This document shows positions 29,497 through 60,380 of a stretch of 64,000 nucleotides of DNA, piece by piece; the first letter of the stretch is position 1, and each line of letters starts with the position of its first letter. Where the stretch lies: NCBI GenBank assembly GCA_002238965.1, contig MPNJ01000013.1, positions 1 through 64,000 on the forward strand, given 5' to 3'. Made by a program: the position numbers and the translations under genes. Origin of the DNA: Nitrospinae bacterium bin107 (GTDB lineage Bacteria > UBA8248). The notes beneath the pieces are model-generated. The model did no database searches. It was given only the letters and a program-made list of their open reading frames with translations, and was not told the DNA's origin.

Positions 29497-29648
29497 CGTC
29501 ATTCCGGCGCATGCCGGAATCCAGACGGAGGAAAGAGGAGATATTGCGGACTTCTATTCATTCCCTTCTTCTGATGGGCTCGGCATAACCGCGAAAAACA
29601 AAAAACGAAAAGGCAAATTCCTGGATTCCGGCATGCGCCGGAATGACG
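29497..29648. mobile_element. Small element with perfect 28-bp inverted ends
   Basis: A 152-bp unit whose ends (29497-29524 and 29621-29648) are exact reverse complements; each end is itself a hairpin (ATTCCGGC with GCCGGAAT). It lies between the convergent PPOX and glgB genes, where transcripts could fold it into a strong structure. The same end sequence recurs at 60185-60324, and degenerately near 790-842. Confidence 0.75.
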
Positions 29649-59262: not shown

Positions 59263-59457
59263 CTAGCTCTTGGCCTCGAGTTTCCGCATCTCGATTTCGA
59301 GTTGCTGGAGCCTGTTCTTGATCATGTTGAAGTCGTACTCGAACCCCTCGGCGAGCAGCGTGAGACCATGGTAGAGCTGGTGCTTTTCCGGCTCTTCCTC
59401 CGCGTTCACCGAATCGAGCATCTCGGCGAAAACCTCTCTGGCATGATGAAAGCTCAA
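59263..59457 (-). CDS. Small helical hypothetical protein
   Basis: A 64-residue, acidic, probably coiled-coil protein (ending IKNRLQQLEIEMRKLEAKS). TTG at 59457 follows GGGGGAAGG, and a strong terminator lies right after the stop, which supports expression. No family recognised; size and helix are reminiscent of SlyX-like proteins but motifs are lacking. Confidence 0.55.
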   Translation of the reverse strand: MSFHHAREVFAEMLDSVNAEEEPEKHQLYHGLTLLAEGFEYDFNMIKNRLQQLEIEMRKLEAKS

Positions 59458-59592
59458 AACGCCTTCCCCCTTTTTGAATGAGAACGCACATTACGAAGCC
59501 ATAAATCTTTTGCGGGAAGAATCCCGCTCCTATCTTTGCTAGAATCCACCGCACCGACAAATAAACCACATCGCAAACGAGGAGTCATCTTC

Positions 59593-60090
59593 ATGCCGGA
59601 AAGACCGAACACGCCGCAAGTCATCCTCCGCCACATTCAGGGCACCCAGCTTCAGATGCTCACCACCACGGGCAAACACTCCTACGTGCTCGACGAACCC
59701 GAAACCAGAGGCGGCACGGATCTGGCCGCCACGCCGTTCGAGTTCTTCATCGCAGGGCACGCGGGCTGAGGCCTCTACACGCTGCTGGGAGCGGCGAAGG
59801 CCAAGGGCATCCATATCGACGACGTGGAGGTCCACGCGGAGTTCAAGCGCAACATAACACCTAAATTTCATTCGGATTACCACGCGGACCCGGAGCGGAG
59901 AAAACTCGCCATCGGCGTCATCCGTACGAGTTATTACATCCACGGCGACGTAACCGAAGAGCAAAAGGCGGAACTTCTCGATGAACTTGAGAACTGCCCC
60001 ATCCACAACACGCTGATGACGCCGCCCAGGCTCGAGGAGCGGATCGTCGTTCTGGAGAAGGATGAAACCGCGCCCAAAGAGATTTCGTAA
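59593..60090 (+). CDS. OsmC-like peroxidase selenoprotein (in-frame TGA = Sec59)
   Basis: Reading through TGA at 59767-59769 gives one 165-residue OsmC-family protein. GGTDLAATPFEFFIAGHAG precedes the TGA, exactly where OsmC/Ohr proteins carry the first redox Cys; the second Cys is C135 in ENCPIHNTL. Downstream of TGA, CGCTGC (59780-59785) pairs with GCGGCG (59791-59796) around the loop TGGGA, 16 bases after the stop, with a lower stem GGCCT/AGGCC (59770-59774 with 59798-59802). This fits a bacterial SECIS. OsmC-like selenoproteins are known from marine metagenomes. It would reduce organic hydroperoxides with thiols. ATG follows GAGGAG. Confidence 0.85.
59770..59802 (+). promoter_or_regulatory. 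Candidate bacterial SECIS element
   Basis: Hairpin directly after the in-frame TGA: lower stem of five pairs, asymmetric internal loop, upper stem of six pairs including one G-U, apical loop UGGGA with G in second place, 16 bases from TGA to loop. These values lie inside the published bacterial SECIS range. Confidence 0.7.
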
Positions 60091-60118: not shown

Positions 60119-60380
60119 TGGGGTTCTTGAAAAAGTTCTCATCGGTCAGTCGATTCCTCCCTCATCGGTCGGAATCGACCACTGCCGTCATTCCGGCGAA
60201 AGCCGGAATCCATTTGCGGATGCGGGTGAATGAACGGCGGCGTTTCATTCCCCACCAATGCGCGGGAACCCTGACGAAAGGCAAAAGGCGTAAAAATGGA
60301 TTCCGGCTTTCGCCGGAATGACGGTGAACACTCTCGATGGAGGGCAACAACCCCTTTGAGGGACTTTTTCAACAACCCCA
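60119..60380. mobile_element. MITE-like element, copy C, carrying a nested repeat
   Basis: Inverted ends at 60119-60136 and 60363-60380 match at 17 of 18 bases (TTCTTGAAAAAGT against ACTTTTTCAACAA). Within it lies a complete copy of the second repeat family at 60185-60324. It fills the gap between the selenoprotein gene and guanine deaminase. Confidence 0.65.
60185..60324. mobile_element. Small element with perfect 29-bp inverted ends, nested
   Basis: Ends at 60185-60213 and 60296-60324 are exact reverse complements, each a hairpin of ATTCCGGCG with CGCCGGAAT arms. Same family as 29497-29648; the interior differs. Confidence 0.75.

Follow-up and report, generated by a model that had tools for sequence, protein, structure and literature searches.

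OsmC/Ohr proteins and the window gene

In enzymes of the Ohr/OsmC superfamily, the first of two redox cysteines attacks the peroxide, the second resolves the product by forming a disulfide, and the enzyme is returned to its reduced state by a dithiol. Selenocysteine (Sec)-containing versions of OsmC are also known, namely those with a UxxT motif from the Sargasso Sea (PMC1088965), the GOS data (PMC2398784) and a 2026 list (PMC13188914). The window analyzed here, a 64,000-nucleotide stretch of contig MPNJ01000013.1 of Nitrospinae bacterium bin107, contains a gene that resembles the UxxT versions (NCBIfam OsmC_like_Se, NF041052) in its OsmC fold, in the predicted Sec in place of the first redox Cys, in the retention of the second Cys and in a bacterial-type SECIS element just 3′ of the UGA. 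The two differ in their motifs: UxxT proteins of the same bacterial family have ULLTQ and GCFAE, whereas the window protein displays UGLYT, i.e., UxxxT rather than UxxT, and CPIHNT as its second motif. The features of the gene are:

59593–60090, plus strand: OsmC-family selenoprotein gene, 165 residues with predicted Sec at position 59 and a TAA stop (translation; Pfam OsmC; seven genomes)
59580–59584, plus strand: probable ribosome-binding site AGGAG, 8 nt 5′ of the ATG at 59593 (read from the sequence)
59767–59769, plus strand: TGA predicted to encode Sec59 at the first redox Cys position (alignment with the Cys of OsmC homologs; TGA in 7/7 genomes)
59995–59997, plus strand: codon of Cys135, the predicted second (resolving) redox residue, in the motif CPIHNTL (translation; kept across aligned homologs)

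A first-pass annotation of the window had proposed that two frames in the same register, parted only by this TGA, jointly encode an OsmC-like protein with the TGA at the first redox Cys and C135 as the second. Its coordinates proved exact, in that 59593–60090 runs from ATG to TAA in a single frame with the TGA as the sole interruption, and the read-through protein matches the PF02566 OsmC profile with an E-value of 5e-13 and 49.7 bits against a cut-off of 27.5. The alignment with Cys-containing OsmC proteins agrees with the proposed residues: the TGA column is Cys in every one of them, the second Cys is kept, and both redox positions of the solved relative 9wo1 align with Sec59 and C135. We regard this observation as confirmed, and the predicted product is a small redox enzyme of the OsmC type with an in-frame UGA read as Sec at the catalytic Cys position of its relatives. 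Standard annotation would split such a gene in two or yield only an 88-residue fragment of it.

Relationship to the UxxT OsmC selenoproteins

The same annotation had mentioned reports of OsmC-like selenoproteins from marine metagenomes; the literature bears this out (PMC1088965, PMC2398784), but the proteins in question are of the UxxT type and belong to a different branch. NCBI's own model for OsmC selenoproteins, NF041052, stays under its curated cut-off of 95 bits on the window protein, which it matches with 59.4 bits (E = 4e-16). In a tree of 110 proteins, computed on 143 columns with the Sec letter left out and limited by long branches and the small number of columns, the window clade (support 100/99) lies apart from the other two Sec clades, including that of the NF041052 proteins, and adjoins CPxH-type OsmC proteins with Cys. 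These COG1765-like proteins (the C-terminal domain of 9wo1; L038, L039, L060, L061) constitute its closest clade and align at both redox positions, but have Cys where the window protein has Sec and are about 30% identical to it. Plasmids returned only distant Cys-containing OsmC proteins of about 32% identity, a search of viral contigs found no relatives and one of PHROGs gave no match.

Thus, the window gene apparently represents a separate branch of OsmC selenoproteins, characterized by UGLYT and absent from current lists, within a class that as such was already known, and it would bring a second motif type, UxxxT, to these proteins. The alternative that it is merely a diverged member of the UxxT family, with Sec having arisen once in OsmC, draws on the low E-value of the NF041052 match and on the fact that the three changes of the Sec label needed on the tree could equally be one gain followed by two losses. 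Nevertheless, it appears unlikely, given the score below the curated cut-off, the differing motifs, the Cys-containing sister group and the rejection of a single clade uniting all Sec-OsmC proteins (AU p = 0.003). As far as the tree goes, an early gain of Sec in OsmC with later losses back to Cys could be part of this history. Overall, we interpret the window protein with high confidence as an OsmC/Ohr-fold selenoprotein that would have Sec59 inserted at the UGA, function in a thiol-peroxidase-like manner and belong to a lineage apart from the UxxT proteins.

Further Sec-containing OsmC genes in the bacterial family

A search of 386 genomes with NF041052 recovered members with an in-frame TGA in all 18 genomes of the bacterial family and, beyond the family, in four genomes with a single member apiece. 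Within the family, the UxxT members read GFULLTQ...GC(F/Y)AE. The genome of the window gene has three of them, at G000:C12:93689-94117 (L093), G000:C60:153136-153561 (L094) and G000:C24:105564-105965 (L095), while its relative G015 has eleven, one of which is cut by a contig end, in addition to one gene of a third type. This third Sec clade (GAUMMSN or GSUMMGT...GCRIHNTL) is found at G014:C110:1760-2158 (L052) and G015:C20:960-1361 (L045), with a further TGA-containing copy at G010:C23:3182-3580. Sister genes of this clade, free of internal stops, occur in G001, G003, G011 and G017, and the three of these that were read have Cys at the same site; being 56–62% identical to the Sec genes, they constitute natural Sec/Cys pairs. 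Such close pairs around the UMMGT-type proteins offer a means of measuring the effect of the exchange.

We consider it somewhat more probable than the contrary that at least three OsmC lineages of this one bacterial family exchanged Cys for Sec independently of one another, alongside a large expansion of Sec-OsmC paralogs (at least 12 genes in G015). If so, OsmC would be a main selenium-dependent redox system in these bacteria, with two Sec-OsmC types that are absent from current lists. That single genomes hold so many of these paralogs suggests that thiol redox chemistry in the group depends on selenium to an unusual degree. The literature searched contained no paper on selenoproteins in Tectomicrobia or on Sec in Nitrospinota.

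Separately, a UxxT Sec-OsmC gene at G016:C280:19833-20248 appears as two overlapping frames, perhaps owing to a frameshift or an assembly error.

Selenocysteine decoding in the host

The first-pass annotation had surmised that the host carries selA, selB, selC and selD, and all four were located in the same genome. The selA gene (576 bits) adjoins selB (386 bits) on contig C14; a tRNA-Sec with the anticodon TCA scores 75.9 bits, with ARAGORN in agreement; and selD (334 bits) has a TGA of its own at the usual Sec site (KAGGUGSK, with the UGSK motif). That the selD TGA coincides precisely with this site indicates that the organism decodes UGA as Sec. The window gene thus combines the features expected of a bacterial selenoprotein, i.e., a conserved in-frame UGA aligned to the Cys of its homologs and a host with selA, selB, selC and selD. 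Together, the Cys homologs aligned to the TGA and the Sec genes of the host support the earlier interpretation of the product as an OsmC-family selenoprotein.

Could the UGA instead be an ordinary sense codon, as in a Trp or Gly code, or be read through by a near-cognate tRNA? Nothing direct speaks for this beyond the weakness of the hairpin described below when taken as evidence by itself. We consider it very improbable, as the genome has selA, selB, selD and a tRNA-Sec, with selD itself having a TGA at its established Sec position, and as a Trp or Gly code would leave unexplained why TGA occurs at the catalytic Cys columns of three OsmC clades.

A second, selD-like protein of the AIR-synthase family is encoded at 1741–2781 of L095 (G000:C24) on the minus strand, directly after one of the Sec-OsmC genes and on the same strand. 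It scores 95 bits to selD, which is below the cut-off, and has no TGA.

The predicted SECIS hairpin

Downstream of the UGA, the following candidate SECIS element was delineated:

59780–59796, plus strand: putative SECIS upper stem-loop CGCUGCU/AGCGGCG with loop GGG (fold; 7/7 pairs in every genome)
59770–59802, plus strand: weaker lower stem GGCCU/AGGCC, 59770–59774 with 59798–59802, incompletely conserved (80% of cells paired)

The upper stem pairs 59780–59786 with 59790–59796 (7 bp) around the loop at 59787–59789, and its pairs form in all seven genomes that have the gene, with A-U/G-U or G-C/G-U alternatives at two positions. A hairpin with a loop G had been noted earlier as lying 16 bases downstream and as a fitting SECIS. 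The hairpin and its loop G are indeed present, but its distance needs a small correction: after the TGA the stem begins at 10 nt and the loop at 17 nt. With its GGG loop, 7 bp, 17 nt and −18.1 kcal/mol, it conforms to published bSECIS rules (PMC13188914: loop of 3–9 nt, stem of 4–16 bp, G in the first two loop positions, 16–37 nt from the UGA, MFE ≤ −7.5). However, the fit is weaker evidence than had been implied, since about 30% of control TGAs pass too: the same rules accept 538 of the 1791 TGA triplets in this G+C-rich window and are too loose to serve as a discriminator. Likewise, 843 of 3000 synonymous recodings (28%) pass, though only 15 of the 3000 (0.5%) are equally stable; the dinucleotide-shuffle z-score of the hairpin is −1.5.

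Comparison with the copy that is 70% identical points to constraint at the nucleotide level, with the synonymous codon unchanged in 7/7 cases over codons 60–68 as against 53/103 elsewhere (p = 0.012); within the genus alone the effect is not significant (p = 0.22–0.37). Among the seven genomes no pair has changed on both sides, one side of the stem being invariant, and because that side never varies a shuffle control on pair counting is uninformative. An Rfam search of the window at gathering thresholds recovered no SECIS family, only a tRNA-Cys. Since hairpins of this sort arise frequently by chance in the DNA of the window, we treat this one as supporting evidence only.

Conservation of the TGA

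Of the 18 genomes of the phylum that were searched, all of one family, seven belong to the genus; six of these carry the gene, as does a single genome from another genus. The assembly of the genus member lacking it is only 79% complete. All seven copies are interrupted once, by a TGA at the identical codon, and are 70–97% identical at the protein level, with the lowest value, 70%, being that of the copy from the other genus. Five of the seven were encountered again in public MAG records, three of which bear the label Nitrospinota, and these add no further genomes to the count. After the TGA, dN is 0.014–0.053 and dS 0.42–0.52 within the genus, and they are 0.25 and about 1.2, respectively, against the distant copy. 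Moreover, dN/dS is well under 1 both before and after the TGA. The TGA shared by seven genomes and the low dN beyond it exceed what chance would give and indicate that the codon is maintained and that the protein downstream of it is made.

Termination at the TGA would leave a 58-residue peptide, and the downstream frame of 88 residues, which opens with the GTG at 59824, could then encode a second product. While this frame does exist, such an arrangement is highly improbable because the downstream protein would lack the catalytic helix and the highly conserved residues of codons 59–77, and none of the relatives displays it. A pseudogene or a sequencing or assembly error turning a Cys codon into a stop in one genome, the latter being a hazard raised in the first-pass annotation as a base-calling error, would likewise leave a single TGA in an otherwise open frame, but it is effectively refuted by the recurrence of the TGA in six further genomes that were assembled separately, including one from another genus at 70% protein identity, together with the strong purifying selection on the portion after it.

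Fold and predicted catalysis

Both redox positions of the OsmC/Ohr superfamily are present in the window protein. In an AlphaFold model of moderate quality built with six close sequences (pLDDT 67, pTM 0.66), Sec59 lies within a long helix (48–70) and Cys135, from the late CP motif, between two late helices. The matches listed by Foldseek for this model were OsmC/Ohr structures, which recur throughout the top of the list, or uncharacterized entries of similar length, with high rmsd; high values are expected where a domain-swapped dimer is predicted as a single chain. The organic hydroperoxide reductase Ohr (e.g., 1n2f, 6eb4) is comparable in its fold and in having its two redox residues in corresponding motifs. 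Unlike Ohr proper, the window protein matches the NCBIfam Ohr models weakly, with 14–16 bits, far below their cut-off.

Membership in the OsmC/Ohr family is the basis for proposing a peroxidase role, and our best reading of the window protein is that of a Sec-containing, thiol-peroxidase-like OsmC. In the mechanism we envisage, SelB with Sec-tRNA(Sec) would bind the hairpin directly 3′ of the UGA and insert Sec59. The Sec59 selenolate might then attack a peroxide or, alternatively, some related electrophile or persulfide, and the resulting selenenic acid would be resolved by Cys135 as a selenenylsulfide, which a dithiol would re-reduce.

Genomic neighborhood

In the genus, the gene lies in a syntenic neighborhood with genes for a diadenylate cyclase/YbbR protein, a deaminase, a hydroxyisobutyrate-dehydrogenase-like protein and a luciferase-like protein. 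None of these occur within about 1.5 kb on either side of the copy in G011, and across the neighborhoods in the genus and G011 no conserved neighbor names a substrate. A short frame at about 59266–59484 on the minus strand (FHHAREVFAEMLDSVNAEEEPEKHQLYHGLTLLAEGFEYDFNMIKNRLQQ), divergent from the OsmC gene, is situated in a stretch that has few gaps and is conserved across the genus; the frame is perhaps an unannotated small protein. The window also contains two palindromic elements, at 60190–60319, just 3′ of the OsmC gene, and at 29501–29644, with inverted ATTCCGGCG...GCCGGAAT ends, where none would be expected by chance.
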